Positions 1,775 to 22,497 of a DNA stretch of 64,000 bases are shown piece by piece; the stretch's first letter is position 1, and each line of letters opens with the position of its first letter. The position numbers and the translations under genes were made by a program. The notes below the pieces were generated by a model, which had not been told where the DNA came from, searched no databases, and saw only the letters and a program-made list of their open reading frames with translations. Source of the DNA: Aquimarina sp. MMG016 (GTDB taxonomy: Bacteria > Bacteroidota > Bacteroidia > Flavobacteriales > Flavobacteriaceae); NCBI RefSeq assembly GCF_018100805.1, contig NZ_JAGJEA010000003.1, positions 496,001-560,000 of the forward strand, in the 5' to 3' direction.

Positions 1775-1794
1775 ATAATTATTGAATATAGAAA

Positions 1795-1983: not shown

Positions 1984-2002
1984 GATCTGTAAAATTAGAA
2001 TA

Positions 2003-2010
2003 CAAAGTTA
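2003..2010 (-). promoter_or_regulatory. -7 promoter element TAACTTTG for tatA
   Basis: On the - strand this matches the Bacteroidota TAnnTTTG -7 consensus exactly and lies 20 nt upstream of the tatA start. I did not find a convincing TTTG -33 box at the usual distance. Confidence 0.5.
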
Positions 2011-2132
2011 ATAAGAATAATATTAAAACTGTTTTTAAAGTGTTAAAAACAGTGATTCAGAACATTATTTTTTAAATATTTTCAGACGATATATTAATAG
2101 ATAACGTTATATTCAGAAATTACGAGAATATG

Positions 2133-2140
2133 TATATTTG
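2133..2140 (+). promoter_or_regulatory. -7 promoter element TATATTTG for the M23 peptidase gene
   Basis: This is an exact match to TAnnTTTG, 13 nt upstream of the ATG at 2154, which implies a very short leader. No clear -33 box is seen. Confidence 0.55.
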
Positions 2141-2153
2141 CGATTAGAATATC

Positions 2154-3023: not shown

Positions 3024-3025
3024 AT

Positions 3026-4525: not shown

Positions 4526-4619
4526 TGTTTATTTCTCTCAAAACATTTCCCCGTTGAAAAATTAATAGAAGCCTTATTCCTGCTATAAAAACAATAGAGG
4601 ATTGTGATGCTTTTTTATA

Positions 4620-4627
4620 TATCTTTG
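4620..4627 (+). promoter_or_regulatory. -7 promoter element TATCTTTG upstream of the DUF6909-like gene
   Basis: This exact TAnnTTTG match sits 13 nt before the ATG at 4641, in the 115-bp spacer after the GH3 gene. It has the same geometry as the element before the M23 gene. Confidence 0.5.
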
Positions 4628-4640
4628 CCAGGAAAAAATT

Positions 4641-6341: not shown

Positions 6342-7330
6342 GTCAACTTGATCAAAACGATGAAGAAGTTTATCTAAAACAAGTTTTTGGACCGATTAGG
6401 GAGTTTTTTAAATCTGTTTTAAGACTTTTTTACTTGTCTATTCTGTTTTTAAGAAAAAAAGCTTTTTTATTTATTGGATTGGTTGTTGTAGGTGTAATTT
6501 TAGGATATTTTCTAGACCGACATTTTGAAACAAATACTATTAAGCAAGAAATTACCATTGAACCCAGGCATAATTCTACCAGTTATCTATATAATTTTGT
6601 AGACAATCTATCCTCAATACATAATAGTGAAGAGTATTTTCAATCCTTAGGATTACGCTCAGAATGGATTGAAAATATTAAATCAATTAAAATAAAACCT
6701 ATAGTAGCTATTGAAGATATTTTTGATCATTTACATACTAATTATGAAGATTATCAATTTCAATATACTATCCGGGATTATTCTGAAAAAGAAATAGAAA
6801 GCAATAAATACACCTTTTTTTATCGGTACCACAAGCTTACTATTTCATTTATAGCTGAAAAGGAATATAACAAAAGGATTACTGATACGTTTTTACAATA
6901 TATTTATTCTAATGAACACTTTAAAAAACAAACTGATCTTTCGGTTAATCAGGCTAGAGAATCATTAGAAAAAAATAAAACGTCCTTACAATTTATTGAT
7001 CAATATCTATCGAAGCTCACAAAAGAAAAAACAGATGATACTCTGGATGTTGTAATTGTTGCCGATGATTCTCAAACCTCAACAGTAGCCTCTCTGTTAA
7101 AAGAAAAAGCTGCGATAGTTAAGTCAATTAATAAAAGTGAAAAGGTAATTAATTTACATAATGAATTTTTCTCAGTCATTGAAAAAACCAATATTATTAT
7201 TGAGAAAAAAAAGTTATATTATAGAATGATCGCTTTAGTTCCATTAACACTATGCTTTAGCATATTATTTTTTTATATAAGTATATTTCTTTATAGGAGT
7301 ATGGAAAATTTTATCACAAAAGTTAAATAA
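6338..7330 (+). CDS. Wzz-like two-helix membrane protein (polysaccharide chain-length type)
   Basis: This 330-residue protein has transmembrane helices at about 39-60 and 294-318, enclosing a roughly 230-residue region rich in charged helical stretches. That is the topology of Wzz/PCP chain-length regulators. A GYFLDRHF segment ends the first helix, much like GWYLDNK in the paralogue at 9859. The C terminus is short and has no Walker motifs, so it is not a tyrosine-kinase co-polymerase. Overlap with the upstream gene and a 1-nt gap to rfbB put it in the rhamnose operon. Sequence similarity to classical Wzz is weak, so the role is inferred from topology and context. Confidence 0.6.
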   Translation: MSQLDQNDEEVYLKQVFGPIREFFKSVLRLFYLSILFLRKKAFLFIGLVVVGVILGYFLDRHFETNTIKQEITIEPRHNSTSYLYNFVDNLSSIHNSEEYFQSLGLRSEWIENIKSIKIKPIVAIEDIFDHLHTNYEDYQFQYTIRDYSEKEIESNKYTFFYRYHKLTISFIAEKEYNKRITDTFLQYIYSNEHFKKQTDLSVNQARESLEKNKTSLQFIDQYLSKLTKEKTDDTLDVVIVADDSQTSTVASLLKEKAAIVKSINKSEKVINLHNEFFSVIEKTNIIIEKKKLYYRMIALVPLTLCFSILFFYISIFLYRSMENFITKVK

Positions 7331-7331
7331 T

Positions 7332-8342
7332 TTGAAAAAAACAGTTTTAATAACAGGAGGAGCAGGGTTTATAGGATCAAACTATTTGAATTATAAATCT
7401 GAATTAGGAGAAGCAAAACTAATTAATCTTGATAGCTTAACATATGCAGCAAACCTTTATAATATAGAGGTCGATCAGGATGAGAATTATCTTTTTATTG
7501 AAGGAGATATTTGTAATTATGATTTGGTAGAACAGATTTTTTCAGAACACAAAATAGATAAGGTAGTTCATTTTGCTGCAGAATCTCATGTGGATAATTC
7601 TATTAGCGGTCCTAAAGCTTTTGTAGACACAAATATCACGGGAACTTTTAACTTACTTCAGGCAGCATATAAAACTTGGATGAGTGAACCCAATAAAATA
7701 AACAAAGGGTATGAAAATGCTCGTTTTCTGCACGTTTCTACGGATGAAGTATATGGAACATTGGGAGAAACAGGGCTTTTTACAGAAGAAACTCCTTATG
7801 CACCTAATAGTCCGTATAGCGCTTCTAAAGCATCTTCAGACATGTTGGTCCGTAGCTACTTCCACACGTATGGATTACCGGTCGTAACCACTAATTGTTC
7901 TAATAATTATGGTCCGAGACAACACGACGAAAAATTAATACCTACCATCATTAGAAAAGCCATTAATGAAGAGAACATCCCTATTTATGGCGACGGAAAG
8001 AATATAAGAGATTGGTTATATGTTTTAGATCACTGTAAAGGAATTGATATTGTGTTAGAATCAGGAAGGCTTGGTGAAACATATAATATTGGCGGAAAGA
8101 ATGAAAGAGAGAATATTTATATAGCCAAAACTATTTGCGATATTTTGGATAAAAAACATCCAAGAAAAGAAGGGTCATATCAGGATTTGATTTCTTTTGT
8201 TACAGACAGGCCAGGTCATGATTTTAGATATGCTATAGATGCTTCTAAAATTGAAAGTGAATTAAGCTGGAAAGCCGATGAAAATTTTGAATCTGGAATT
8301 GAAAAAACAATAGATTGGTATTTAAAAAAATATAAAAATTAA
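7332..8342 (+). CDS. rfbB: dTDP-glucose 4,6-dehydratase
   Basis: This enzyme makes dTDP-4-keto-6-deoxyglucose from dTDP-glucose, the second step to dTDP-L-rhamnose. The 336-residue extended SDR shows the NAD motif GGAGFIG at 9-15, the family-specific TDE at 137-139 that carries out dehydration, and the catalytic Y162-x3-K166 (YSASK). The start is TTG, one base after the previous stop; no other start fits the N-terminal beta-strand KTVLITGG. All four rhamnose genes are present nearby, in the order B, A, C, D. Confidence 0.97.
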   Translation: MKKTVLITGGAGFIGSNYLNYKSELGEAKLINLDSLTYAANLYNIEVDQDENYLFIEGDICNYDLVEQIFSEHKIDKVVHFAAESHVDNSISGPKAFVDTNITGTFNLLQAAYKTWMSEPNKINKGYENARFLHVSTDEVYGTLGETGLFTEETPYAPNSPYSASKASSDMLVRSYFHTYGLPVVTTNCSNNYGPRQHDEKLIPTIIRKAINEENIPIYGDGKNIRDWLYVLDHCKGIDIVLESGRLGETYNIGGKNERENIYIAKTICDILDKKHPRKEGSYQDLISFVTDRPGHDFRYAIDASKIESELSWKADENFESGIEKTIDWYLKKYKN

Positions 8343-8400
8343 TTATTCCTCCTTTTAAGGGGGTGAGGGGATGTTTTTTCCTCAAAAATACTTTTAGAAT

Positions 8401-9258
8401 ATGAAAGGAATTATACTCGCTGGAGGATCAGGAACACGTTTACATCCGCTAACATTGGCCGTAAGTAAGCAATTAATGCCGGTATATGACAAGCCCATGA
8501 TTTATTACCCACTTTCTACTTTAATGTCAGCGGGAATTCGTGAGGTACTGATAATTTCTACACCAAAAGATCTACCCTTATTCGAACAGCTATTGGGAGA
8601 TGGTAAAAAATATGGATGTCGTTTTGAATATGCTATACAGGATCAACCTAACGGATTAGCTGAAGCATTTATCATAGGAGAAGAATTTATTGGTAAAGAT
8701 AAAGTGGCTTTGATCCTGGGTGATAATATCTTTTATGGTTCTGGCTTAAAGAATCTTTTAAAGAGTAATAATAACCCGGATGGAGGCATTATATATGCAT
8801 ATCATGTTCAAGATCCTGAACGCTATGGAGTGGTAGACTTTGATAAAGACGGTAAGGTAATTTCAATTGAAGAGAAGCCAGAACACCCCAAATCTAATTA
8901 TGCTGTGCCTGGAATTTATTTTTATGATAATGAGGTTGTGGAAATAGCTAAAAATATAAAACCGAGTGACCGAGGAGAGCTCGAAATTACAGATGTCAAT
9001 AATGCATATCTCCAAAAAGGGAATTTAAAAGTTAGTATTTTGGATAAAGGTACTGCTTGGCTAGACACAGGAACTTTTAATTCCTTAATGCAGGCATCGC
9101 AGTTTGTACAAGTGATAGAAGAACGACAAGGACTTAGGATTGGAGCAATAGAGGAAGTAGCATATGCAAATGGTTTTATAGATAAGAATCAACTTCAAGA
9201 ATTAGCTAAACCATTATTGAAGAGTGGTTACGGAAAGTATTTATTACAATTAGATTAA
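8401..9258 (+). CDS. rfbA: glucose-1-phosphate thymidylyltransferase
   Basis: The enzyme joins glucose-1-phosphate and dTTP to dTDP-glucose, the first step of dTDP-L-rhamnose synthesis. The 285-residue protein begins with the nucleotidyltransferase signature GGSGTRL (8-14) and has KPMIYYPLS at 31-39. Length and motifs match RmlA closely. The 58-bp gap before it contains a GC-richer stretch with CCTCC and GGGGG tracts that resembles a degenerate intergenic repeat. Its stop abuts rfbC directly. Confidence 0.97.
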
Positions 9259-9858: not shown

Positions 9859-10917
9859 ATGAGTACTAATAAAGAAAACATATCAGAAGAAATAGATCTA
9901 GGACATTTGTTTAAGTTAATTGGAGATGCTTTTAATAAACTATTTCAATTCGTCGGAAATATTTTTAAAGGATTATTTCACTTATTAATACAATTTTTAC
10001 AATTTATTAGAATTCACTTTTTAAAATTTGTTATTGCCGGAGTAGTGGGTATAGCTATTGGATGGTATTTAGATAACAAAGCTGTACCAATATATATATC
10101 TTCTATGATAGTTGAGCCTAATTTTAATAGTGTTCAGCAATTATATAATAATATTGATTTTTATAACGAGTTGGCTAAAGAGGGTGCCAATAGACCATTA
10201 GCTGGAGCATTAAAAATTTCTGACAGCTTAGCAAGAACCATACACGGAGTTCGAATTGAATCTTTTTCTGATAATACTCAAAAAATAAGACAGTTTAGTG
10301 AGTTTATTCAAGAATTAGATACGGTCTCAAGAAAGCTGGTAGATTACAATGATTATCTGGAGAATTTTAATGATATAAATTCGAGGTTTCATAAAATTGA
10401 AATTGTAGCAACAGATTCGGGTGTAGCTAAAGAATGTCAGAATGCCATAGTAAGATCTATTGAGAATAATGAATATTTTAGGTCACAAAAAAGAACCAAT
10501 GAATTAAATCTTAGGATAAATGACTCAGTAGTCCGTAAACAATTGGTAGAAGTAGACTCGTTATTATTTTTCTATCAAAACTTGAAAATGCTCGAAATTC
10601 AAAAACCAGAAGGTACATCGGGAACTAGTATAAATTTAGCAGCAAAAAATCAGGATCTGGATCGTTCGGAAATTACTTTACTTAAAGAATCAAAAGCGCT
10701 GAACAATGAAATTATGGTGTTAAACCAACGTAAAGCTAATACTGAAAATATTATTAACGTTATTTCTGATTTTCCGGATAAAGGCGTGTTGGCCAATAGT
10801 TTTTTTAATCAAAAGAAGGTGTTATTACCAATTTTATGTATTGGTTTGGTTTTTATAAGTTTAGTTTTGCTATCACTGAATAAGTATTTAAAAAATTATA
10901 ATGAAACAAGTTTCTAG
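9859..10917 (+). CDS. second Wzz-like two-helix membrane protein
   Basis: The 352-residue protein has transmembrane helices at about 53-72 and 323-344, with a periplasmic-type helical region between, as in Wzz/PCP proteins. The end of helix 1 (GWYLDNK) and the IEP/VEP strand after it resemble the product of 6338, so the two are probably paralogues. An amphipathic hydrophobic stretch lies at about 18-48. It sits between rfbC and rfbD. Having two such proteins suggests two glycan chains or a hetero-oligomer. No kinase domain is present. Confidence 0.6.
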   Translation: MSTNKENISEEIDLGHLFKLIGDAFNKLFQFVGNIFKGLFHLLIQFLQFIRIHFLKFVIAGVVGIAIGWYLDNKAVPIYISSMIVEPNFNSVQQLYNNIDFYNELAKEGANRPLAGALKISDSLARTIHGVRIESFSDNTQKIRQFSEFIQELDTVSRKLVDYNDYLENFNDINSRFHKIEIVATDSGVAKECQNAIVRSIENNEYFRSQKRTNELNLRINDSVVRKQLVEVDSLLFFYQNLKMLEIQKPEGTSGTSINLAAKNQDLDRSEITLLKESKALNNEIMVLNQRKANTENIINVISDFPDKGVLANSFFNQKKVLLPILCIGLVFISLVLLSLNKYLKNYNETSF

Positions 10918-10973
10918 AGTTTATTAGGCTGAGCTTGTTGAAATCCTTATCAAAATTAACCAAATATAGTAGC

Positions 10974-11819
10974 ATGAAAATCCTTATCACAGGTAGTAAT
11001 GGGCAATTAGGCCAATGTATTAAAAGAATCGAAAGTGAGTATGCTAGTTTAAGTTTCTTTTTTACTGACTCTAAAGAATTAGATATTACTGAAAAGGATA
11101 GTTTAGAACATCATTTCAGAAAAGAATCTTTTGATTATGTTATTAATTGTGCCGCTTATACTAATGTAGAACAATCGGAAAAAGAGCCAGAGAAAGCTTC
11201 TTTAGTCAATGCTAATGGAGTCAAAAACCTGACTCAAGTTTGTAAAGAAAACAATACTATTTTAATTCATATTTCGACGGATTATGTATTTGATGGAAAG
11301 AAAAGTAGCCCATATGTTGAGGAAGATCTTCCCAATCCTATTAACAAATATGGAGAGTCTAAACTTTTAGGCGAAAAATATATTCAAGAAATTTTAGAAA
11401 AATATTTTATTATTAGAACCTCTTGGCTTTATTCTCAATACGGTAAGAATTTTTATAAAACCATTCTTGAAAGGTCAAATACTCAAACCAATTTTACCAT
11501 AACAACTTCTGAAACAGGTACCCCAACAAATGCAAATGATTTAGCTAGATTTTTACTTCAAATTGTAGAAACCAAAAGTGAAAATTATGGAATTTATCAT
11601 TTCAGTAATCTTGGAAACGTTACCTGGTATGATTTTGCAAAGGAAATTTTAAAAATTTCAGGTAAACTAGAGGGAATAAAGCTGGAAAAAACAGATAATT
11701 ATCCTACTTTTGCAAAACGTCCGAAACATAGCGTGTTAAGTAAAGAAAAGGTTGAAAAGAATTTTGATTTAAAGATTTTGAATTGGAAAGAATCTTTAGA
11801 AAAAATAATGAAGAATTAG
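10974..11819 (+). CDS. rfbD: dTDP-4-dehydrorhamnose reductase
   Basis: The final enzyme of dTDP-L-rhamnose synthesis, a 281-residue short-chain reductase. It shows the nucleotide motif ITGSNGQLG close to the N terminus, STDYVFDG, and the catalytic YGESK. I chose the ATG at 10974 over a TTG at 10935: the extra 13 residues precede the conserved first beta-strand, and their DNA (GGCTGAGCTTGTTGAA) looks like an intergenic repeat remnant rather than coding sequence. The next gene begins 4 nt after its stop. Confidence 0.95.
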   Translation: MKILITGSNGQLGQCIKRIESEYASLSFFFTDSKELDITEKDSLEHHFRKESFDYVINCAAYTNVEQSEKEPEKASLVNANGVKNLTQVCKENNTILIHISTDYVFDGKKSSPYVEEDLPNPINKYGESKLLGEKYIQEILEKYFIIRTSWLYSQYGKNFYKTILERSNTQTNFTITTSETGTPTNANDLARFLLQIVETKSENYGIYHFSNLGNVTWYDFAKEILKISGKLEGIKLEKTDNYPTFAKRPKHSVLSKEKVEKNFDLKILNWKESLEKIMKN

Positions 11820-11823
11820 AATA

Positions 11824-12789
11824 ATGCTATACCCATTAAAATTTCACCCAATTTTAAAAGAAAAAATCTGGGGAGGAAATAAATTTAAAATTTTACTCAA
11901 CAAACCTTTTTTGGAAGGTAATATTGGTGAAAGTTGGGAAATTTCGACTGTTGGAGAAGACATCTCTGTAGTATCTAACGGAGAATTAGTCGGTGGAAAT
12001 TTGGTAGAACTCATAAAGGAATATAAGGGAAACTTGATCGGCAAGAAAACTTATGAGGAATTTGGAAATCAATTCCCATTGCTAATAAAATTTATTGATG
12101 CTAAAGAAGAGTTGTCGGTTCAGTTGCATCCCAATGATGAATTAGCAAAAGAAAGGCATAATTCTTTCGGGAAAACCGAAATGTGGTACGTGGTACAGGC
12201 AGACAAGGAGACTAAATTGATCGTTGGATTTAATAGGAAAACCAGCAAAGAAGAGTACCAGAAGTATTTGGAAGAAGGTAAAATAGAAGAGCTGCTGAAT
12301 TTTGAGAATATAGTTGCTGGAGATAGTTATTTCATTAATGCTGGAAAAATTCATGCTATTGGAGCGGGGTCATTGATTGCCGAGATACAACAAACTTCTG
12401 ATATCACTTATAGAGTTTATGATTGGGAGCGAAAAGACAGTAAGGGAAATCAGAGAGAATTACATACCGAACTAGCTTTGGAAGCTTTGGATTTTAGTTT
12501 TAAAAAAGATTATAAAATAGAGTATTCTCAAACTACCAATCGTGTTAATCCCCACGTAAACAGCACTTATTTCAACACCAATTTTCTAAATGTAAATGGA
12601 AAATTAAAGAGAAATTATAGTAGTATTGATTCTTTTGTAACTTTGATTTGCGTTGAGGGAATCACTGAAATCATGTGTAAAAACCAAAAATACGATCTGG
12701 TAATGGGAGAAACAATTTTACTGCCTGCCTGTATCCAAGAAGTAGAATTAATATGTGATGCTTCAAAAATTATTGAAGTATTTATTTAA
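11824..12789 (+). CDS. manA: type I phosphomannose isomerase
   Basis: The enzyme interconverts fructose-6-phosphate and mannose-6-phosphate. The short (321-residue) bacterial type I form is seen, with likely zinc ligands Q100 and H102 (QLHPND), E119 and H177 (NAGKIHAIGAG). No phosphomannomutase or GDP-mannose pyrophosphorylase is in the window, so those steps must be encoded elsewhere if it feeds GDP-mannose. It lies between rfbD and pseB, within the sugar-nucleotide block. Confidence 0.92.
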   Translation: MLYPLKFHPILKEKIWGGNKFKILLNKPFLEGNIGESWEISTVGEDISVVSNGELVGGNLVELIKEYKGNLIGKKTYEEFGNQFPLLIKFIDAKEELSVQLHPNDELAKERHNSFGKTEMWYVVQADKETKLIVGFNRKTSKEEYQKYLEEGKIEELLNFENIVAGDSYFINAGKIHAIGAGSLIAEIQQTSDITYRVYDWERKDSKGNQRELHTELALEALDFSFKKDYKIEYSQTTNRVNPHVNSTYFNTNFLNVNGKLKRNYSSIDSFVTLICVEGITEIMCKNQKYDLVMGETILLPACIQEVELICDASKIIEVFI

Positions 12790-12814
12790 ACATTGCAATA
12801 AAAACAAAGTAAAC

Positions 12815-13834
12815 ATGTTTGATCTTAAAGGAAAATCAATACTTATTACTGGTGGTACTGGGTCATTAGGAAAAGCTTTAACGAAACATATTTTATCTAA
12901 ATATCCAGAGATAAAAAGATTAATAATTTTTTCAAGGGATGAGCAGAAACAATTTCAAATGGCTCAAGAGTTTCCCAATGAAAAATATCCACAACTTAGG
13001 TATTTCATAGGGGATGTTAGAGACAAGGATAGATTGGTTCGGGCTTTCCAAAATGTTAATTATGTAATACATGCTGCAGCCATGAAGCACGTGCATATTG
13101 CCGAATATAATCCTGATGAATGTATTAAAACAAATATTGGAGGAGCAGAGAATATCGTAGAAGCTTGTTTTAAAACCAATATAGAAAGGGTTGTTGCACT
13201 GTCAACCGACAAAGCTTGTGCCCCTATTAATCTTTATGGAGCTACCAAATTAACTTCTGACAAACTTTTTGTCGCTGCCAATAATATTAAAGGAGAAAAC
13301 CCTATTAGATTTTCTGTAGTGAGATATGGAAATGTTATGGGGTCTAATGGTTCGGTTATTCCGTTTTTTATTAAAAAGAAAAAACAAGAAGGTAAGTTAC
13401 CAATTACAGATCCAGGCATGACACGTTTTAATATTTCTTTAGAAGGAGGTGTAGAAATGGTAATGCATGCCTTAGAAAATGCCTGGGGAGGTGAGCTTTT
13501 TGTGCCTAAAATACCTTCATATAAAATTATGGATGTAGCTGAGGCTATTGGACCGGAATGTGAAAAACCAATAGTAGGAATAAGACCCGGTGAAAAAGTA
13601 CACGAGGAAATGATTACTCCTTCGGATTCATTTTATACATATGATTTAGGAAAGTATTATACGATCCTTCCTGCAACACATCAATGGAGTTTAGATGATT
13701 TTATCAAAACTTTCAATGCCAAAAAGGTACCACAAGGTTTTAGCTATAACTCAGGAAAAAATAATGAATGGGAAACAGTAGAAAGCTTAAGATCACTTAT
13801 AAAAACTCACGTAGATTCAACTTTTGAGGTATAA
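12815..13834 (+). CDS. pseB: UDP-N-acetylglucosamine 4,6-dehydratase (5-inverting)
   Basis: PseB begins pseudaminic acid synthesis by converting UDP-GlcNAc to UDP-2-acetamido-2,6-dideoxy-L-arabino-4-hexulose. The SDR signature TGGTGSLG is at 12-19, and the family-specific STDKA...PINLYGATK block is present. The ATG at 12815 (339 residues) is preferred to one at 12755, which would overlap manA and add a non-conserved leader. The stop overlaps the pseC start by one base, so the two are likely coupled. Confidence 0.95.
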   Translation: MFDLKGKSILITGGTGSLGKALTKHILSKYPEIKRLIIFSRDEQKQFQMAQEFPNEKYPQLRYFIGDVRDKDRLVRAFQNVNYVIHAAAMKHVHIAEYNPDECIKTNIGGAENIVEACFKTNIERVVALSTDKACAPINLYGATKLTSDKLFVAANNIKGENPIRFSVVRYGNVMGSNGSVIPFFIKKKKQEGKLPITDPGMTRFNISLEGGVEMVMHALENAWGGELFVPKIPSYKIMDVAEAIGPECEKPIVGIRPGEKVHEEMITPSDSFYTYDLGKYYTILPATHQWSLDDFIKTFNAKKVPQGFSYNSGKNNEWETVESLRSLIKTHVDSTFEV

Positions 13835-14982
13835 TGAAAATGAATATTCCATACGGAAGACAAAATATCGATCAAAAAGATATCGATATGGTTGTTAAAA
13901 CGCTACAATCAGATTTTTTGACACAAGGGCCTGTAGTAAAGAGCTTTGAAGACAAGTTTTCTGAATATGTGGGGTGCAAATATTCTATAGCGGTCAGTAA
14001 CGCTACAGCTGGTTTACATTTGGCAGTTTTAGCATTAGGACTTAAACCTGGCGATAGAGTAATTACGACTCCTATAACTTTTGCTGCGTCTGCAAACTGT
14101 ATCCGATATGCTGGAGGTGAAGTTTGGTTTGCGGATATAGACCCAGACACTTATTTGCTTTCTTTTGAAGAAACTAGAAAATTAATTGAAAGCAAACCTA
14201 AAGGTTTTTTTAAAGGAATAATACCCGTAGATTTTGCGGGATTGCCTGTTAACCTTGAGAATTTTAGAAAGCTTGCACTTGAACATGACTTGTGGATTAT
14301 AGAAGATGCTTGTCATGCACCGGGAGGATATTTTGCTGATTCTAATAACATCAAGCAAATGTCTGGTAATTCAAATTATGCGGATATAGGCATTTTTTCT
14401 TTTCATCCAGTGAAACATATTGCTTGTGGTGAGGGAGGTATGATTACTACTAATAATGAAGATTTATATAAAAAGCTTTTATTATTAAGGACCCATGGTA
14501 TTACTAAAGAAAATATGTCTGAAAATCATGGAGGTTGGTATTATGAGATGCAAGAATTAGGGTTCAATTATAGGCTAACAGATATCCAATCTTCATTGGG
14601 GATAACTCAATTAGCTAAAAATGCTACAGGAGTTGCAAAAAGAAATACAATCGCTAAAAGATATCGTCAAGCCTTTGAAAATAAAATAAAATTTCAATCA
14701 CTTCCTCAAAACAGGTATAATGCGCACCACCTATTTGTAATTGAATCGGACAATAGAAAAGAACTTTATGATTATTTGAGGGAAAATGGAATTTATGCAC
14801 AAATACATTATATTCCAATACATACCCTCCCTTATTATAGAAAAATTGGATATAAAGAGGCAGATCTGAAGAACTCAGAAAATTATTATTCTCGTTGTTT
14901 AAGCTTGCCCATGTACCCTACTTTAACAGATGAAGAACAAGATTTTGTGATTTCTAAAGTTTTGGATTTTATAAATGAGTAA
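13834..14982 (+). CDS. pseC: UDP-4-keto-6-deoxy-sugar aminotransferase
   Basis: PseC is a PLP-dependent DegT/DnrJ/EryC1 aminotransferase that installs the C4 amino group with glutamate as donor. The 382-residue protein has the sugar-aminotransferase block EDACHAPGG near 158-165 and the likely PLP-binding lysine K194 in FSFHPVKHIACGEGG. The free 4-amino group it makes is normally acetylated by PseH, which is missing from this cluster. Confidence 0.95.
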   Translation: MKMNIPYGRQNIDQKDIDMVVKTLQSDFLTQGPVVKSFEDKFSEYVGCKYSIAVSNATAGLHLAVLALGLKPGDRVITTPITFAASANCIRYAGGEVWFADIDPDTYLLSFEETRKLIESKPKGFFKGIIPVDFAGLPVNLENFRKLALEHDLWIIEDACHAPGGYFADSNNIKQMSGNSNYADIGIFSFHPVKHIACGEGGMITTNNEDLYKKLLLLRTHGITKENMSENHGGWYYEMQELGFNYRLTDIQSSLGITQLAKNATGVAKRNTIAKRYRQAFENKIKFQSLPQNRYNAHHLFVIESDNRKELYDYLRENGIYAQIHYIPIHTLPYYRKIGYKEADLKNSENYYSRCLSLPMYPTLTDEEQDFVISKVLDFINE

Positions 14983-15667
14983 TGTAGTTATTATACCAGC
15001 TAGAGGAGGAAGTAAACGCATTCCAAGAAAAAACTTAAAATTTTTTCTTGGAAAACCGATTATAGCCTATTCTATCAAAGCTGCATTGGAGGCTAATATT
15101 TTTGATGAGGTAATGGTTTCTACAGATGATGTTGAGATAGCAGAAATAGCCAAAAAATATGGGGCGTCAGTTCCTTTTTTAAGAAGCACAAAAAACTCAG
15201 ATGATTATGCTACAACATATGATGTAATTAATGAAGTGATTAACTGTTATAAAGAAAGACAAAGAGAGTTTGACTATACTTGTTGCCTTTATCCGACAGC
15301 ACCGTTTGTAAGTCCTGAACAACTTATTAAAGCGTTTAACCTATTGAAAAAGGATAATACTGATGGAGTATTAACCGTAACTCCTTATTCGTATCCAATT
15401 CAAAGATCGTTAAGCCTAGACGAAACCAATTTTATAAAAATGAATTCACAAGAACATCTAAAGACACGTTCTCAGGATTTAAAAGAAAGTTACCACGATG
15501 TGGGTCAGTTTTATTTTTATAAAACAAAGCGTTATTTAGAAAAGAAGTCGATATTTAATATGCGTTGTAAACCAATTATCTTGTCAGAAATGGAAGCTCA
15601 AGACATTGATAATGAAGTAGATTGGCAACTTGCGGAATTAAAATATAAGTTAATTAAATCAAATTAG
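14975..15667 (+). CDS. pseF: pseudaminic acid cytidylyltransferase
   Basis: PseF activates the finished nonulosonic acid as its CMP-sugar. The 230-residue protein starts with the CMP-sugar synthetase signature IPARGGSKRIPRKN at 6-19, and later has QDIDNEVDW near 207-215, typical of NeuA-like enzymes. It overlaps pseC by 8 nt. Confidence 0.94.
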   Translation: MSNVVIIPARGGSKRIPRKNLKFFLGKPIIAYSIKAALEANIFDEVMVSTDDVEIAEIAKKYGASVPFLRSTKNSDDYATTYDVINEVINCYKERQREFDYTCCLYPTAPFVSPEQLIKAFNLLKKDNTDGVLTVTPYSYPIQRSLSLDETNFIKMNSQEHLKTRSQDLKESYHDVGQFYFYKTKRYLEKKSIFNMRCKPIILSEMEAQDIDNEVDWQLAELKYKLIKSN

Positions 15668-15675
15668 ATTAAATC

Positions 15676-16725
15676 ATGTCTAATTATAGACTTAAGAAGA
15701 TTTATTTCATAGTAAACGCAAATTCCAGAATAGGTTTTGGGCATTTAAAAAGGTGTTTGTTATTAGCAAAGGAGTTTAATTCGAAAGGTATTGAGACTGT
15801 TTTTTTAAGTGACAATATCTCAAAACATATGATCAATGAGGTTCAAGAAAAACATGAATTAGAACTTTTTGACACTAAAAAATCCTTATTAGAAACATCA
15901 TTTCACTTCATTAACAAAGAGCAAAGTTTGTTAATTATTGACACAGACGACCAAGAATTTTATGAGTCTAATTATCAAAAATCAATATATGAAAGAGGTA
16001 TTAGGTTTATGTATATTACTATAAAGAATAACATTTCCTATTACTCACATTTTCTTTTAAATCCGAATATAATTGCATTAGCAACAAATTATGAAACACA
16101 ATCGTATACAAGACTAATGCTTGGTCCAAAATATTTTATTTTGGATGATAATTTCAAAGAAATAAAACCGAATTTAAGGCAAGAATCAAAAACAAAAAAT
16201 ATTTTATTGACATTTGGAAGCGCTGACCCAAACAATTTGACATATAAATTACTTTCGATTTTAGAAAGATATGAACATTTCTTTAATAAGCTTAGAGTGG
16301 TCGCGGGGGGACTAAACACAAATGTCGATAATATAAAAAAACACAAACTCTTATCGAAGAATAATGTAGAAATTTATATCGATACTAAAGAAATGTATAA
16401 ACTTATGTCGGATACTGATTTGGCTATAACATCTATGGGACTCACTTTTTGGGAGTTGACATTGCATAAAGTTCCCTGTATAGCGATTTCCGGTTCAGAA
16501 AGAGAAAAACCGGTGTTGAAGTATATAGGCAAAGAAAATTATTGTTATAATCTCGGGGACTATGATGATAAAGATTGGGAGAAAAAATGGCAAACGGGAT
16601 TGGATAAATATATTGATAACATGAACCAATATAGATCAGGGTTGGATAAATTATACGATCATATAAATATTAACGGGAAAACCGATTTAATAAACCAAGT
16701 TATTACAGAATATGAAAAATTATAA
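15676..16725 (+). CDS. pseG: UDP-2,4-diacylamido-sugar hydrolase
   Basis: PseG is a GT-B fold hydrolase that removes UDP to give the free 2,4-diacylamido-2,4,6-trideoxy-L-altrose. Over 349 residues it has the catalytic G-x-GH-x2-R motif (IGFGHLKR, H23) and a C-terminal nucleotide-binding region around TSMGLTFWELT. The GT-B inter-domain segment LLTFGSADPNN is also present. Sequence after the first third is fairly divergent from textbook PseG, which could reflect a bulkier acyl group on its substrate; that is speculation. Confidence 0.85.
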   Translation: MSNYRLKKIYFIVNANSRIGFGHLKRCLLLAKEFNSKGIETVFLSDNISKHMINEVQEKHELELFDTKKSLLETSFHFINKEQSLLIIDTDDQEFYESNYQKSIYERGIRFMYITIKNNISYYSHFLLNPNIIALATNYETQSYTRLMLGPKYFILDDNFKEIKPNLRQESKTKNILLTFGSADPNNLTYKLLSILERYEHFFNKLRVVAGGLNTNVDNIKKHKLLSKNNVEIYIDTKEMYKLMSDTDLAITSMGLTFWELTLHKVPCIAISGSEREKPVLKYIGKENYCYNLGDYDDKDWEKKWQTGLDKYIDNMNQYRSGLDKLYDHININGKTDLINQVITEYEKL

Positions 16726-17344
16726 CACCATAATTTTAGAAAAGGATTTGGAAATTTCCTTTAAAGGAGACAGGGATTATATTTATGCATCAGATATGTT
16801 TATCCTAATTGCAAAGGAATTAATAGCAAAAGATTTTACCAACATAAAAAATATTGATTTTTCTGTACATAGTATATCTAACAAAGAAATTAAATTATTA
16901 CTTTTTCAAAGTGATGTTTTAGAAACCAATGAAGATAATTTGGCGCAAATAAAATTTGAATCCAATGATACAACTTACTTTGGTGTGATTAGAAAAGGCT
17001 CGTCAGAAATTTTAAAGCGAACTGAGTATAATGAAAAAGAAGTTTTTTCAAATGCTGAAATAGATAAAGTGAAGCAAAGAATAGAATTGTCAAATGACTA
17101 TAAAAAATATTCTAACCTTGATGTATTAACCGCAATGAATAAGAGATTACTCTATGAGGTTAGGCCGGATATTGAAGGGAAATGGCTTTCAGTTAGATTG
17201 CAATTAGATGACCTTGAGGATTTACTCAAAGAAAGGTCAAATTATGCGGTTGAGTTAATTAAGGTTTTTTCAAATAAATATTCAAAAAGCATACTGCTCA
17301 GCAATAATAAAAAAATAGGAAATTTATTTTTCTCATTAATCTAA
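16712..17344 (+). CDS. unknown 210-aa protein in the pse acyl cassette
   Basis: I do not recognise this protein. It is soluble, has no signal peptide, and overlaps pseG by 14 nt; the KAS III gene starts 11 nt after it. The first 95 residues alternate strand-like and one long helix-like stretch (roughly 25-38), with a GDRDYI turn that loosely recalls a hot-dog fold. The second half is charged and helical. Its place in an ACP/KAS III/acyltransferase set suggests a step in acyl-group formation, for example on an acyl-ACP, but there is no catalytic motif I can name. Confidence 0.75.
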   Translation: MKNYNTIILEKDLEISFKGDRDYIYASDMFILIAKELIAKDFTNIKNIDFSVHSISNKEIKLLLFQSDVLETNEDNLAQIKFESNDTTYFGVIRKGSSEILKRTEYNEKEVFSNAEIDKVKQRIELSNDYKKYSNLDVLTAMNKRLLYEVRPDIEGKWLSVRLQLDDLEDLLKERSNYAVELIKVFSNKYSKSILLSNNKKIGNLFFSLI

Positions 17345-17355
17345 AGAAAAATGAA

Positions 17356-18285
17356 ATGATCGGAATAAAAAACGTTGGTGTATACATACCTAATAAGAAA
17401 GTTTCAAATTTAGATAAGTTATCCAAGTTTGAAACAACAGAAGATTTTGTAATCAACAAAATTGGTATAGAAAAGGTAGCTGTAAAAGAAGAGACCGAGG
17501 ATGTTTCGGATATGTGTGTTAAGGCATTCGAAGATTTAAAAAAATTAGGGGAAATTGATTTAGACACAATTAAGATATGTATTCTAATTACACAAAACCC
17601 AGAAAGCAATATTCCTCATTCATCTGCTTTAATCCATGATAAGTTAAATTTACCAAATGATTGTGCTTGTTTTGATATTTCATTGGGATGTTCAGGATAT
17701 GTTTATGGATTATCCGTTGTTAAATCCTTAATGGAATCCAACAATATAGATGATGCTCTTTTATTTACCTGTGACCCATATTCTAAAATTATGGATTATG
17801 ATGACAAGAATACTTCACTGTTATTTGGTGATGCGGCAACGGCTACTTATATTACTAGAAATGAACCAATTCTCACATTAGGGAAATTTACTTTTGGGAC
17901 GGTCGGTAAAGAAAGTCATAATTTAACTGCCGGGATTGATGGAAGTAAATTGTATATGAACGGTAGAGGAATTTATAATTTTGTAATAAGAAATATACCG
18001 AAAGATCTTGAAAAGTTATATGCTTTAAATGAAATTGACAAAAGCAGTATTGATTTGTTTTTGTTTCATCAGGGCAGTAAATATATGATCGACGTTCTTA
18101 CAAAAAGGATGAAACTAGACCCTGACAAAGTTATATTTTCGGCAAAGAATTATGGTAATACAGTTTCAAGCTCCATCCCAATTTTAGTTAAAGATCGATT
18201 GGCTTCTGATGCAGATAAAATAGCAATAAGTGGATTTGGAGTAGGACTTTCTTGGTCAAGCACAATATTGAAAAGAAATAAATAG
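17356..18285 (+). CDS. 3-oxoacyl-ACP synthase III (KAS III) family protein
   Basis: The 309-residue thiolase-fold enzyme retains the full KAS III triad: C112 (SLGCSGYVYGL), H238 (FLFHQG) and N268 (NYGNTVSSSIP). KAS III enzymes condense an acyl-CoA starter with malonyl-ACP. A dedicated copy directly next to an ACP and an LpxD-like acyltransferase, inside the pseudaminic acid cluster, suggests it builds a short acyl group for the sugar rather than serving bulk fatty acid synthesis. The chain length and any later reduction cannot be read from the sequence. Other KAS III-fold enzymes, such as acyl transferases, remain possible. Confidence 0.92.
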   Translation: MIGIKNVGVYIPNKKVSNLDKLSKFETTEDFVINKIGIEKVAVKEETEDVSDMCVKAFEDLKKLGEIDLDTIKICILITQNPESNIPHSSALIHDKLNLPNDCACFDISLGCSGYVYGLSVVKSLMESNNIDDALLFTCDPYSKIMDYDDKNTSLLFGDAATATYITRNEPILTLGKFTFGTVGKESHNLTAGIDGSKLYMNGRGIYNFVIRNIPKDLEKLYALNEIDKSSIDLFLFHQGSKYMIDVLTKRMKLDPDKVIFSAKNYGNTVSSSIPILVKDRLASDADKIAISGFGVGLSWSSTILKRNK

Positions 18286-18289
18286 AAAA

Positions 18290-18520
18290 ATGGAAATAAC
18301 AGAAAAAAACTTAAAAGAAATATTAAAAAAATCTTATCATGGAGACTTGGATGAGATTGAGATGACAAGTGAATTAAGTCAGATTGTCGACTCTTTGGAT
18401 ATGTTGGATTTTTATATGCACCTGGAGGAAACGTATGAAATTCAAATTCCGGATGAAGATGTAGATAAACTTAAAACGTTTCAAGACGTTAAGCAATATA
18501 TCGAAGAAAAGTTAAATTAA
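18290..18520 (+). CDS. dedicated acyl carrier protein
   Basis: This 76-residue acidic protein has the carrier-protein motif D34-S35-L36, where S35 would take the phosphopantetheine arm, and the usual four-helix length. The surrounding sequence (DSLDMLDFYMHLEE) differs from the very conserved DSLDTVELVM of housekeeping AcpP, in keeping with a specialised carrier. It lies 4 nt after the KAS III gene and its stop abuts the LpxD-like gene, so the three are surely co-expressed. Confidence 0.93.
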   Translation: MEITEKNLKEILKKSYHGDLDEIEMTSELSQIVDSLDMLDFYMHLEETYEIQIPDEDVDKLKTFQDVKQYIEEKLN

Positions 18521-19387
18521 ATGAAGCACCCTATTAGACCGATATCGGTATCTTCTTTAGAACAGGAGTTCTTGGGAAATTCAGATTTTCAGGTAAAATA
18601 TATTACCTCTTTAGCCTATAGTGATGATACAACGATCACTTTTTACAAGGGAGATGATTTGGATCGTATTGCCAAAACTTCGGCCGGAATTTTAATTGTC
18701 AAAGAAGAACTCAAGGGCAAAATCAAAGACTATATAGCATCAGCAATTTTATTTACAGATAATCCAATGTTGTTTTTTGCAAAATTGCTAGCTAAAAATT
18801 TTGAAAATACTTTTACAGATCAAAAAAAAATAGTTAACGATGAATCGAAGATATCTTCAGATGCATATATAGAGGACGAGGTTCATATAGGAAACGAAAC
18901 GAAAGTATATCCTAATGTCACCATTCTGAATTCTACTTCTATAGGAAGTAATTGTGTCATACAATCAGGAAGTGTATTAGGAGGAATTGGGATGTCTTAT
19001 GTTAAAGATGATTTAGGAAACTTCAATAAGATTGTTCAATTAGGAATACTAGAGATTTGTGATAATGTGGATATTGGATCTAACGTGAGTGTTTTAAGAG
19101 GTATTTTTGAAAAAACGTATATTGGCGAAGGAACCAAAATAGGGAACAACGTCAATATTGGACATAATGTCGTTATAGGAAAGAATTGCTACATTTCTTC
19201 TGGAGTAATTATTGGAGGTGCTTGTAACATAGGAGATAACTGTTGGATTTCTCCGGGAGTTTCTATAGTTGATCATATCAAAGTAGGTGATGGAGCCAAG
19301 ATTGGAACAGGAGCTGTGGTAATCAAAGACGTATTAGAGAATAGTTTTTATTTAGGAAATCCTGCAAGAAAAATAAAAGACTTATAG
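18521..19387 (+). CDS. LpxD-like ACP-dependent N-acyltransferase (left-handed beta-helix)
   Basis: The 288-residue protein matches the architecture of LpxD: an N-terminal mixed domain ending in LFTDNPMLFFAKLL, then hexapeptide repeats (about 107-270) and a short C-terminal tail. LpxD transfers 3-hydroxyacyl chains from ACP to an amino sugar on UDP. The catalytic histidine is kept as H215 (NIGHNVVIG). Its position next to a dedicated ACP suggests that it acylates the 4-amino group made by PseC, taking the place of PseH. A nine-A tract lies at 18822-18830. The homologous lipid A enzyme would normally sit in an lpx operon, which this is not. Confidence 0.85.
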   Translation: MKHPIRPISVSSLEQEFLGNSDFQVKYITSLAYSDDTTITFYKGDDLDRIAKTSAGILIVKEELKGKIKDYIASAILFTDNPMLFFAKLLAKNFENTFTDQKKIVNDESKISSDAYIEDEVHIGNETKVYPNVTILNSTSIGSNCVIQSGSVLGGIGMSYVKDDLGNFNKIVQLGILEICDNVDIGSNVSVLRGIFEKTYIGEGTKIGNNVNIGHNVVIGKNCYISSGVIIGGACNIGDNCWISPGVSIVDHIKVGDGAKIGTGAVVIKDVLENSFYLGNPARKIKDL

Positions 19388-19390: not shown

Positions 19391-20404
19391 GTGGAAAATA
19401 AGACATTTATTATTGCCGAATTATCTGCCAATCACAACAATGATCTTCAATTGGCTAAAGATACGATTTACGCAATGAAAGAATCAGGAGCGGATGCGGT
19501 TAAGTTTCAAACTTTTACGGCAGACTCTATGACCTTGAATATAGATGGGAAGGATTTTGAAGCTAATCCAAAAGGAGCGTGGGCCGGAAGAAAACTGTAC
19601 GATTTATACCAAGAAACTTCCTTACGTTATGATTGGCAGATAGAATTATCAAATTATGCCCTTTCTTTGGGTATACAATGGTTCTCATCTCCTTTTGATT
19701 TTAAAGCAGTAGACTTCTTAGAATCTATAAATTGTCCGATTTATAAAATCGCATCATTCGAGATTCTGGATATACCTCTTATAGAATATGCTGCTTCTAA
19801 AGGAAAACCAATGATCATATCTACCGGAATTGCTATAGAAGAAGATATAAAACTTGCAATAGAAACCTGTAAAAAGGTTGGAAATAATGACATTACTATC
19901 CTTAAGTGCACATCTGCATACCCTGCACCTTATAATGAGATTAACCTTAACGTCATACCGGCTTTGAAAGAAAAATTTAATGTTAAAGTAGGTTTGTCGG
20001 ATCATACTATGGGGAGTATTGTGCCCTTGGGAGCAGTATCTTTGGGAGCCAGAGTAGTAGAAAAGCATTTCATTTTGGATAGAAAACTAGGAGGAGCAGA
20101 TTCATCTTTCTCTATGAATCCTGAAGAGTTTACCTTCATGGTAAAAGGTATTCGTCAACTAGAACAGGCACTCGGAACGTCTTCTCTTGAGATATCTGAT
20201 GAGTCAAAGATTGCAAGAGAGAGAGGGAGATCATTATATGTATCCCAAGACGTTAAGAAGGGAGATTTTATTACTAAAGAGAATATTCGTTCTATTAGAC
20301 CTGCCTATGGCTTACATCCTAAATATTATCAAGAAGTGTTAAATAAAACTTTTAAAAAGGATATTAAAAAGGGAACACCATTAAGTTTTGAATTGATAAA
20401 TTAG
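19391..20404 (+). CDS. pseI: pseudaminic acid synthase
   Basis: PseI condenses the 6-deoxy-diacylamido-altrose with phosphoenolpyruvate to give pseudaminic acid. The 337-residue protein has the NeuB-type TIM barrel (AELSANHNND at 9-18, GADAVKFQTFT, KIASFE, LSDHT) and a C-terminal antifreeze-like SAF domain (RSLYVSQDVKKGDFIT onward). The start is GTG, 3 nt after the LpxD-like stop. Its presence closes the pathway and confirms that the four genes before it lie inside, not beside, the pse operon. Confidence 0.95.
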   Translation: MENKTFIIAELSANHNNDLQLAKDTIYAMKESGADAVKFQTFTADSMTLNIDGKDFEANPKGAWAGRKLYDLYQETSLRYDWQIELSNYALSLGIQWFSSPFDFKAVDFLESINCPIYKIASFEILDIPLIEYAASKGKPMIISTGIAIEEDIKLAIETCKKVGNNDITILKCTSAYPAPYNEINLNVIPALKEKFNVKVGLSDHTMGSIVPLGAVSLGARVVEKHFILDRKLGGADSSFSMNPEEFTFMVKGIRQLEQALGTSSLEISDESKIARERGRSLYVSQDVKKGDFITKENIRSIRPAYGLHPKYYQEVLNKTFKKDIKKGTPLSFELIN

Positions 20405-20408: not shown

Positions 20409-21734
20409 ATGAACATTTTATTCATAGAGAACCGATATAAAACATTTACCTATGAGGCCATAGGAAATCTCTTTATAAAAGATGGGTTCCAAGTTTCTTT
20501 TTTGATTCAAAACAATTATTATGCCCCAAAAAAAGAAGACTTCAATTGTCACATTATTCCATTTCCAGATTCAAAAGAATTAAACAAAGAATATAAGGCT
20601 GATTCAGAAATAATAAATATTATTAATTCTGATCGAATGCAAAATTTTTTTCATAAAAAAGGAACTAGTTACTTTTACTATTACAATGAAAAAATAGAAG
20701 AAATATTAGATTTAGTTAAACCTGATGTAGTTTTTGGAGAATCGACAGCATTTCACGAATTAATCACAATAAAAAACTGTAAAAAAAGAAACATTTTATA
20801 TCTAAATCCTTCTACCTGCAGATATCCAAAAAACCGCTTTTCTTTTTATAAATACGACACCTTAGAACCTTATAAAGGAAGTAATGAAGAACTAACATAT
20901 TCTCAGGCATTAGAAATAATAAATGGGATAGTTAATAGATCTACTAAACCTGATTATATGAAAGTTGTTAAGAAATCTAGATCTAAAAATACTAAAGATA
21001 AATTTTCTAAAACAGTTTCGTTCATAAAAGGAGATACGTATAATACTCCAAGTCCTTTGGTCAAATTTAAGATAGAAAAAACAAAAAAGAAAAATATAAA
21101 GCGTTGGGATTTGCTAGCGAATGAAAAAATTGATAAAAGTAAAGGTGAACTTATTATGTTGTATCCTTTGCAGATGCAACCCGAAGCTAACTTGGATGTC
21201 TGGGGGCGCAAGCATAGAGATCAACTCAAATTGATTCAAGAAATCAGTAAAAATTTACTTAACAAAAAAACAAAGCTTGTAGTTAAACCGAATCCCAAAT
21301 CAAAGTACGAATTGTCAGAAGCATTGTTGGATTATGCTCAAACCACTGATAATATAACAATGCTAAAGCATGAGGTCAAAATGGATGATATATTGGCAGA
21401 TATCGACTTGGTAATAACGGTAACAGGTACCATCGCCATTGAATGCATATTATCTAATATTCCTGTGGTTACTCTAGTAAACACAATTAATAACGAACAA
21501 GGAAACTGTTTATATCTCAATGATTTAAATGATATCCCAGTTGTTTTAGAAAAAGTAAAAAATAATACATTTCCCAAAATATCTGATAATGAGAAAATTA
21601 ACTTCCTAAATAAGCTTAATAAATTAAGTTATGAAGGAAGAATATCTGATCCATTTAGTTATAACAGGTGTCTTGAAGAAGAGAACCTGGAAAAAATTTA
21701 CTACGCATTCAAAGATATTCTTAAAACGGATTAA
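20409..21734 (+). CDS. capsule-type glycosyltransferase (KpsC/KpsS-like GT-B)
   Basis: This 441-residue soluble protein has a C-terminal half resembling capsule polysaccharide synthesis proteins: MLYPLQMQPEAN near 248-259, the KPNPKSK strand-loop near 293, and a nucleotide-site-like VTVTGTIAIE near 336-345. KpsC/KpsS proteins transfer Kdo from CMP-Kdo, and related proteins handle other CMP-nonulosonates. Lying 4 nt after pseI, it is the best candidate for the pseudaminyltransferase of the locus. The N-terminal half is not recognisable. Confidence 0.65.
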   Translation: MNILFIENRYKTFTYEAIGNLFIKDGFQVSFLIQNNYYAPKKEDFNCHIIPFPDSKELNKEYKADSEIINIINSDRMQNFFHKKGTSYFYYYNEKIEEILDLVKPDVVFGESTAFHELITIKNCKKRNILYLNPSTCRYPKNRFSFYKYDTLEPYKGSNEELTYSQALEIINGIVNRSTKPDYMKVVKKSRSKNTKDKFSKTVSFIKGDTYNTPSPLVKFKIEKTKKKNIKRWDLLANEKIDKSKGELIMLYPLQMQPEANLDVWGRKHRDQLKLIQEISKNLLNKKTKLVVKPNPKSKYELSEALLDYAQTTDNITMLKHEVKMDDILADIDLVITVTGTIAIECILSNIPVVTLVNTINNEQGNCLYLNDLNDIPVVLEKVKNNTFPKISDNEKINFLNKLNKLSYEGRISDPFSYNRCLEEENLEKIYYAFKDILKTD

Positions 21735-21741: not shown

Positions 21742-22497
21742 ATGAAAAGAACAATAACAGCTTGTATTGCTTTTTTTTTTCCTAGTGTTATTTCTGTTCA
21801 ATTATTAAGATTATTAGGATATAAAATCGGAAAGAATGTTAGAATTGGATTTTCAATACTAAAAGTTTCATCTTTAACTATTCAAGATAATGTTAGAATT
21901 GGGCACTTCAACATTTTTTTAAACCAAAATATAAGCTTAGCTCAGAATGCCAAAATCGGATATTTGAATTTTTTTAAGGGACCAGTTCAATTGATTTTGG
22001 ATCAAAAGGCTGCGATAGGAAACAGGAATTATATTACCCGTGCAAGAATAGGAGTAACCTATGGCGAATCAATCTTAAAACTAGGTATATTAACCAAAAT
22101 AACAACAGGACATCACTTAGACCTAACTTGCAGTATTAGCTTTGGGAATTATTCGATACTTGCTGGAATAAGATCTCAGATGTGGACCCATGGTTATTAC
22201 CATTCGGACCAGGGAAAAGAGAGGATACGTATTGATGGTGAAATAAAAATCGGAAATAATGTTTATGTGGGATCTGGATGTATATTTAATCCAGGAGTTA
22301 AAGTTGCTGATGCCGCGCATATCGGTGGAGGTTCTGTAATTTCTAAGAATTTGGAAAAACCTGGCATGTATGTAAGTCAAGGGTTAAGATTTATCGAAAA
22401 TGACATCAAAAAGGTAAAATCAAAACTTCAAAATATCAATGACGAATACAACCTAGTGGAAGCGGTTTATGTAAAAAAAATTAATGAAGATATTTAG
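21742..22497 (+). CDS. hexapeptide-repeat O-acyltransferase (WbbJ/CysE type)
   Basis: The 251-residue protein has irregular left-handed beta-helix repeats from about 30 to 215, with the C-terminal IKIGNNVYVGSGCIFNPGV block typical of sugar O-acetyltransferases. An RSQMWTHGYYHSD loop near 145-157 holds the likely catalytic histidine. It probably adds an acetyl group to a sugar of the glycan. A run of ten T bases (21771-21780) covers codons 10-13, and a slip there would end translation early. The stop overlaps the next gene by 14 nt. Confidence 0.8.
   Translation: MKRTITACIAFFFPSVISVQLLRLLGYKIGKNVRIGFSILKVSSLTIQDNVRIGHFNIFLNQNISLAQNAKIGYLNFFKGPVQLILDQKAAIGNRNYITRARIGVTYGESILKLGILTKITTGHHLDLTCSISFGNYSILAGIRSQMWTHGYYHSDQGKERIRIDGEIKIGNNVYVGSGCIFNPGVKVADAAHIGGGSVISKNLEKPGMYVSQGLRFIENDIKKVKSKLQNINDEYNLVEAVYVKKINEDI
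21771..21780 (+). repeat. ten-T homopolymer near the start of the acyltransferase gene
   Basis: This is the longest mononucleotide run I found in the window. It lies in codons 10-13 of a predicted soluble enzyme, where slipped-strand mispairing would shift the frame. Runs of eight or nine T occur in several Phe-rich membrane protein genes here, so background is high. Confidence 0.6.

Follow-up and report, generated by a model that had tools for sequence, protein, structure and literature searches.

The N-acyl groups of pseudaminic acid help to determine surface antigens and phage recognition. In Acinetobacter, psa modules are described that place either acetyl or 3-hydroxybutanoyl at N-7 of this sugar; the psaABCGHF module leads to Pse5Ac7R with R being (R)-3-hydroxybutanoyl, and the replacement of DE by GH goes along with the changed 7-N-acyl group (PMC9676051). 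A similar gene set is reported for Shigella boydii O7 (PMC3726653). The wfpC-G genes of the Flavobacterium psychrophilum O-antigen R-group have been proposed to build an acyl group on an acyl carrier protein (ACP) and to attach it to a 4-amino sugar (PMC6519341). ACP and fatty-acid-type genes are also named among the flanking genes near pse for a Campylobacter protein family (PMC11878206), and fatty-acid-type genes are described in enterobacterial flagellin glycosylation islands (PMC4875605). Here we report a cassette of four genes within the pseudaminic acid (pse) operon of Aquimarina sp. MMG016, located on a stretch of 64,000 nucleotides (contig NZ_JAGJEA010000003.1, positions 496,001 to 560,000; hereafter the window). 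The cassette encodes a 210-residue protein designated UNK210, a 3-ketoacyl-ACP synthase III (KASIII), an ACP and an LpxD-like transferase, and it probably represents a module for ACP-dependent N-acylation that takes the place of the acyltransferase in the operon (the acyltransferase slot).

The four genes are intact, lie on the + strand at 16712-19387 and are framed by pseG (15676-16725) and pseI (19391-20404). The reading frames of UNK210 and pseG share 14 bases; the remaining neighbours are 0 to 11 bases apart, the LpxD-like reading frame beginning at the base right after the ACP stop codon. A previous interpretation of the window (the sequence-only reading) had listed pseB, C, F, G and I as present, and each of them indeed scores over its NCBIfam cut-off, PseG barely. 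The organization of the operon is as follows:

12755..13834, + strand: pseB, UDP-GlcNAc 4,6-dehydratase (inverting); TIGR03589 502.5 bits, cut-off 407.75 (scored as 12788-13834); start likely near 12815
13834..14982, + strand: pseC, 4-aminotransferase; TIGR03588 454.4 bits, cut-off 423.5
14975..15667, + strand: pseF, CMP-pseudaminic acid synthetase; TIGR03584 305.8 bits, cut-off 205.7
15676..16725, + strand: pseG, UDP-sugar hydrolase of 349 aa without fused GNAT domain; TIGR03590 156.7 bits, narrowly over the cut-off of 153.55
16712..17344, + strand: UNK210, 210 aa; no significant family-library match, two homologues in other cassettes
17356..18285, + strand: KASIII, 309 aa; PF08545 and PF08541 over cut-off
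18290..18520, + strand: ACP, 76 aa; PF00550 25.6 bits, cut-off 20.8
18521..19387, + strand: predicted LpxD-like left-handed beta-helix N-acyltransferase, 288 aa; Hexapep repeats 98.9 bits
19391..20404, + strand: pseI, pseudaminic acid synthase, GTG start; TIGR03586 465.0 bits, cut-off 340.25
20409..21734, + strand: candidate pseudaminic acid transferase (putative function); PF05159 20.8 bits, cut-off 20

The content of the PseG-PseI stretch was compared across 88 regions around PseI, 35 from a family sample and 53 from a phylum sample (the short contig L039 was left out). They comprise 89 counted PseI genes, for 64 of which PseG was recognised upstream by BLAST; the other 25 were set aside. 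Slot classes were assigned by BLAST at E 1e-4 to reference genes of these loci and cross-checked in part by Pfam and NCBIfam. A GNAT or formyltransferase is located in the PseG-PseI interval or at the C-terminus of PseG for 57 of the 64 anchored PseI genes, in the form of PseG-GNAT fusions (35), formyltransferases without a GNAT (12, two of them fused to PseG) or GNATs that are not fused to PseG (10). Chimeras of PseG and PseH have been published for Aeromonas caviae (PMC7874193). Judged by gene order, the PseG-PseI stretch thus appears to be, for the most part, the usual place of an N-acyl or N-formyl transferase, and in the window it is the cassette that fills it. The PseG of the window (349 aa) shows no fused GNAT, as its sole NCBIfam match covers residues 8-273 and Pfam returned nothing at E 0.01, whereas the PseG-GNAT fusions of the fetched loci measure about 470-530 aa.

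In L114 (G557) a carbamoyltransferase lies between PseG and PseI (10069-11751), and L124 harbors a similar-sized gene at the same position. In L084 (G190:C1:2889302-2908269) CitE-like proteins, a MaoC/mesaconyl-hydratase-like protein and a NeuD-type transferase are located between PseF and PseI (11026-13686), perhaps another acyl supply for the slot. Downstream of the slot, a BLAST homologue of the reading frame at 20409-21734 directly follows PseI in 11 of the 88 regions.

The sequence-only reading had taken the lack of PseH as a main argument. TIGR03585, the PseH model, has 13 matches in the genome, all of them weak and none over its cut-off of 93.1 bits; the observation stands, but it is not diagnostic. 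The family sample contains 37 genomes whose PseI scores over cut-off, that of the window included; only two of them have a TIGR03585 match over cut-off, and it is absent from 34 of the 36 others. PseH absence alone says little because most PseI-bearing relatives are without a model match as well; it was dropped as the key argument, given that 2 of 37 genomes have a model match over cut-off and that 35 of the 64 anchored PseI genes go with a PseG fused to a GNAT. The position in the slot is the stronger evidence. The best PseH-model match of the genome (L001, 56.1 bits) is flanked by reading frames that we take to be dapF and mltG, and it was set aside as a hidden PseH on the context of these housekeeping neighbours.

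ACP genes were found near PseI in three of the 89 fetched regions besides the window, and a profile built from these ACPs together with those of the window and its genome detected no further ones in the 89 regions at E 0.01. One example is L071, from another genus, with the order PseG, KASIII, ACP-like protein, PseH-like GNAT and PseI. Its KASIII scores 276.2 bits to NF006829 (cut-off 249), the ACP-like protein of 73 aa carries a DSM motif and has one weak NCBIfam match (20 bits) and none in Pfam, and the sole NCBIfam match of the GNAT is PseH with 73.9 bits, under the cut-off. Another example is L110 (G740:C88:28767-47750), where PseG, a methyltransferase, PseH (107.3 bits, over cut-off), a glyoxalase-like protein, FkbH (334.6 bits), a weakly matching ACP (29.5 bits) and PseI follow each other at 5171-8948. 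PseH, FkbH and the ACP of this slot are candidates for making the 7-N-glyceroyl form of pseudaminic acid. They bear on an open question, as the gene responsible for the 7-N-glyceroyl group that this sugar carries in Tannerella forsythia has been termed elusive (PMC6120980). The third locus, L080 (G300:C2:361864-380844), exhibits a long predicted acyl-building cluster upstream of PseI (1087-8940) that contains PseH: FkbH, ACP, AMP ligase, PseH (98.2 bits, over cut-off), a second ACP-like protein, a short-chain dehydrogenase/reductase (SDR), a hydrolase, KASIII, a MaoC-SDR fusion and PseI. Its hydrolase and ACPs were read from the sequence by eye, the ACPs also with our own profile, and BLAST recognised no PseG near its PseI.

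From gene content and order, the retained residues, the slot and the recurrence of the cassette we infer a series of reactions, the nature of the acyl group and the role of UNK210. With the dedicated ACP as carrier of the malonyl unit, KASIII would condense the latter and a short acyl-CoA to a 3-oxoacyl-ACP, which the housekeeping FabG, assumed to be present, may reduce; UNK210 probably works on the acyl-ACP or together with KASIII. The LpxD-like protein, with His215, would then place the acyl group on the PseC product, UDP-4-amino-4,6-dideoxy-L-AltNAc, at its 4-amine. This 4-amine becomes N-7 of pseudaminic acid after the action of PseG and PseI, and the successive activity of PseG, PseI and PseF would yield CMP-Pse5Ac7-acyl, i.e., a 7-N-acyl pseudaminic acid. 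Acylation of the PseC product from an ACP, the core of the sequence-only reading, is the best reading because the cassette occupies the acyltransferase slot and because in a second genus (L071) a PseH-like GNAT shares this slot with KASIII and an ACP-like protein, but not on the ground of a missing PseH.

The residues of the two carrier-related proteins agree with what had been noted before. KASIII retains C112, H238 and N268, and both ACP_syn_III domains (PF08545, PF08541) score over cut-off; in the dedicated ACP, Ser35 lies within a DSL motif and PF00550 is over cut-off. Both proteins stay under the cut-offs of the more specific NCBIfam models, KASIII with 208.7 (cut-off 249) and 183.3 bits (cut-off 292.1) for the FabH subfamilies, the ACP for the ACP models. 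They are additional to the other KASIIIs and ACPs of the genome, one of the latter being located at G000:C23:193892.

The complete set of UNK210, KASIII, ACP and LpxD-like protein was found in three loci, namely, the window, a plasmid of Pontibrevibacter nitratireducens (L150) and G439, a genome from the same phylum as the window (L156). L150 has the order ACP, LpxD-like, UNK, KASIII, FdtA and DegT aminotransferase, L156 the order FdtA, FdtA, LpxD-like, UNK, KASIII, ACP, PAPS-reductase-like protein, epimerase and DegT aminotransferase, and the three cassette orders are cyclic permutations of each other. By their family names the FdtA-type genes indicate 3-amino-3,6-dideoxy sugars; the cassette is therefore tied to amino sugars and not to pseudaminic acid as such. 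Its best reading is that of a transferable module for ACP-dependent N-acylation. The window KASIII is 50% identical to the one of L156 and 42% to that of Pontibrevibacter; among the other KASIIIs encoded in its own genome, the nearest reaches 28%. Phylogenetically, the three cassette KASIIIs fall into a five-row clade, supported by 100/100, whose two further members come from Pseudomonas veronii and Azospirillum; the Azospirillum gene follows a putative polyketide synthase (own reading). On the P. veronii plasmid LT599585.1 (L151, 6136-9930) the KASIII gene adjoins that for polyhydroxybutyrate polymerase and lies beside an acetoacetyl-CoA reductase gene, a context that hints at C4 acyl chemistry.

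UNK210 had been listed as an unknown protein before, a status that no longer holds, as it is a member of the cassette that recurs with KASIII, ACP and the LpxD-like protein; our own treatment of it as an orphan was likewise overturned by the homologues in the two other cassettes. It has no match in NCBIfam, and the best E-values in PHROGs, Pfam and the PDB are 0.032, 0.041 and 1.3. The Pontibrevibacter homologue P0001 (203 aa) aligns over nearly all of UNK210 with 22% identity (E 1e-9 as a single comparison), and their score of 42.0 bits compares with 25.4 for the best of 2000 shuffles. Plasmid searches with UNK210 and with the L156 homologue returned no match, P0001 having been reached through KASIII. 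A profile of these two rows detected one new member in 277 phylum genomes, that of G439 (L156:9762-10346, E 1.8e-12), and none in two other genomes of the same genus. Leave-one-out profiles recover the members at 7e-18, 1.5e-9 and 2e-20 among 6452 open reading frames (ORFs), with the next unrelated one at 0.1 or above; their rows were taken from the joint alignment, which slightly favors the members. Pfam and NCBIfam gave nothing for the two homologues. UNK210 is located directly upstream of KASIII in all three loci found. On this comparison of sequences it is a member of an undescribed protein family that matches nothing in the libraries tried. Two family-genome matches (L010 and L011, E 2e-4 and 6e-4) were judged as chance, no sugar genes being seen nearby by eye, and a genome-contig scan, which detects close relatives only, showed no relative.

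The structure model of UNK210 has a strand-helix-strands pattern. Its top fold match is a SciW/Eag protein, and thioesterases, presumably of the hot-dog type, occur among the rest; none reaches an E-value of 0.001 or below and the TM-scores are low. A hot-dog fold is a weak lead only because of this top match and the absence of any match at E 0.001, and the comparison of the UNK210 profile with one MaoC-type protein was negative.

The lack of a ketoreductase in the cassette was confirmed as far as recognisable, since one classical SDR query against the 59 window ORFs matched PseB alone, and weakly. The acyl group may thus be reduced by bulk FabG, stay unreduced, or involve UNK210; the 3-hydroxybutyryl-type chain suggested in the sequence-only reading is a candidate. 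One far-reaching version holds that UNK210 is a new enzyme family in the place of the ketoreductase, with an unusual, possibly unreduced 3-oxoacyl group being attached to pseudaminic acid and to 3-amino sugars by a shortened LpxD with different ACP recognition. A hint in this direction is that the modules with an SDR (Burkholderia glumae, Parabacteroides and, according to PMC6519341, F. psychrophilum) show no UNK210, and that the three UNK210 loci show no recognised SDR of that kind. L071, with KASIII and ACP but neither an SDR in the slot nor UNK210, counts against it, and we regard this version as unlikely.

The fourth protein had been described as a full-length LpxD-like transferase with H215. 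The histidine is present and aligns with that of the IGHN/IAHN motif, the catalytic histidine of LpxD; it is invariant in five rows comprising the three cassette transferases and the two LpxDs of the genome. The full length does not hold, as the protein stops 24 and 28 residues before the ends of these LpxDs and scores 197.1 bits to TIGR01853, under the equivalog cut-off of 242.5, compared with 257.1 and 351.5 bits for the two. The other cassette transferases are also under this cut-off (95.8 and 134.3 bits). The N-terminal LpxD domain PF04613 reaches 28.0 bits (cut-off 30.8) in a poorly modelled region. The missing part is the C-terminal extension, which in LpxD serves ACP recognition and binding.

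The search for relatives of this protein in a genome-contig scan, which detects close relatives only, yielded none, and at a strict E-value of 1e-36 the 397 family genomes returned a self-match only. LpxD-like proteins with about 30% identity over 94-99% of the window protein lie among glycosyltransferase genes on two Haloprofundus plasmids (L147 and L149, about 10000-10830); archaea are not known to make lipid A. Further plasmid matches were seen in Fusobacterium.

The missing extension leaves room for a different reading, in which the LpxD-like protein would stand in for PseH as a CoA-dependent N-acetyltransferase of the hexapeptide type and lead to Pse5Ac7Ac, while KASIII, ACP and UNK210 serve otherwise. 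Pointing the same way, the NeuD model for sugar acetyltransferases gives a secondary match of 100 bits (cut-off 160.8). This is nevertheless improbable, as KASIII, ACP and UNK210 accompany the LpxD-like gene in all three loci found, and as the slot of L071 likewise holds KASIII and an ACP-like protein, there together with a PseH-like GNAT.

Many more ORFs of the window are of the polysaccharide type (reading by eye), and a further hexapeptide gene is located at 21742-22497. Together with the 13 weak PseH-model matches they agree with a scenario in which the cassette acylates another polysaccharide residue or a lipid and an unlinked GNAT acetylates the 4-amine. The location of the cassette in the acyltransferase slot of the pse operon makes this scenario highly improbable, and a blastp search of PseC against the 59 window ORFs (E 0.05) returned only the self-match and thus no second aminotransferase; the best GNAT candidate L001 has the housekeeping neighbours mentioned above. 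Least probable of all, with hardly any weight, is that UNK210 itself is the acyltransferase and the LpxD-like protein has a different role: hot-dog AfsA-type enzymes are acyltransferases, UNK210 is kept in three cassettes and its low-confidence model matches include the thioesterases, but the top match is SciW/Eag with nothing at E 0.001 or below, TM-scores are low, the MaoC comparison was negative, and the LpxD-like protein keeps its catalytic histidine in three loci and resembles known sugar N-acyltransferases.

Several observations weigh against an ACP-dependent N-acylation module. The LpxD-like protein is without the C-terminal extension, and its poor structure model (mean predicted local distance difference test, pLDDT, 60.0) gave no fold match at E 0.001; that of UNK210 is poorer still (mean pLDDT 39.7). 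The cassette KASIIIs form no clade of their own, the Pontibrevibacter protein joining those of Azospirillum and P. veronii (91/93, 91/90), and the KASIII genes of the latter two lie outside recognised sugar loci, so the KASIII type alone is not sugar-specific. A ketoreductase went unrecognised at all three loci (in the SDR query of the window, the annotation of L150 and part of the L156 genes). The complete cassettes found number just three; UNK210 has no relative in the other genomes among 66 of the genus, none in the others among 397 family genomes apart from the two weak matches judged as chance, and a homologue in just one other of the 277 phylum genomes. Finally, no GNAT or formyltransferase was recognised for seven of the 64 anchored PseI genes (L081, L114, L120, L124, L125, L130, L132), and the slot survey is confined to these 64, no PseG having been recognised for the other 25.

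The cassette is real and intact, and the sequence-only reading holds in its main lines and errs in two points, the full-length LpxD and the weight of PseH absence. If the proposed ACP-dependent N-acylation is true, the acyl group of pseudaminic acid is set by a swappable module, the genes of the PseG-PseI slot predict acetyl, formyl, glyceroyl or an ACP-built chain, and LpxD-type chemistry gains a role outside lipid A. A search of the open-access literature, with subscription papers mostly outside its reach, found no description of an LpxD-like transferase or of the four-gene cassette in a pseudaminic acid pathway.

The closest described counterpart is wfpC-G, with two 3-ketoacyl-ACP synthases, an O-antigen-specific ACP and an acyltransferase predicted to place 3,5-dihydroxyhexanoyl on UDP-Qui2NAc4NH2; it differs in its PglD-type transferase, a dedicated 3-ketoacyl-ACP reductase and the bacillosamine-type sugar (PMC6519341). 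A gene like UNK210 does not figure in the description given there, on which, rather than on sequence, this distinction is based. For psaABCGHF, compared likewise by description and not by the psaG and psaH sequences, the term "acyl carrier" is absent from the main text of the paper (PMC9676051). Plasmid pBGF3 of Burkholderia glumae (L153) is annotated with vioA, KASIII, ACP, SDR and acetyltransferase genes near flagellin, the 4-amino-sugar aminotransferase being adjacent, and its KASIII groups with that of the pseudaminic acid locus L071 (86/90); in contrast to the cassette it has an SDR, and its fetched stretch gives no match to the UNK210 profile. The group II flagellar glycosylation islands of Aeromonas resemble our locus in the presence of an ACP, a 3-oxoacyl-ACP reductase and an AMP-dependent synthetase near pse genes, but they contain pseH, their fatty-acid-synthesis proteins occur with luxE and luxC, and the account of them describes no LpxD-like transferase (PMC7874193). 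With LpxD itself the cassette protein shares the left-handed beta-helix repeats, the catalytic histidine, the predicted acyl transfer to an amino sugar and a possible trace of the N-terminal domain, whereas it lacks the C-terminal extension and stays under the LpxD cut-off. The ACP-based N-acylation of sugars is thus of a known kind, and the most novel part of the cassette is the undescribed UNK210 family.

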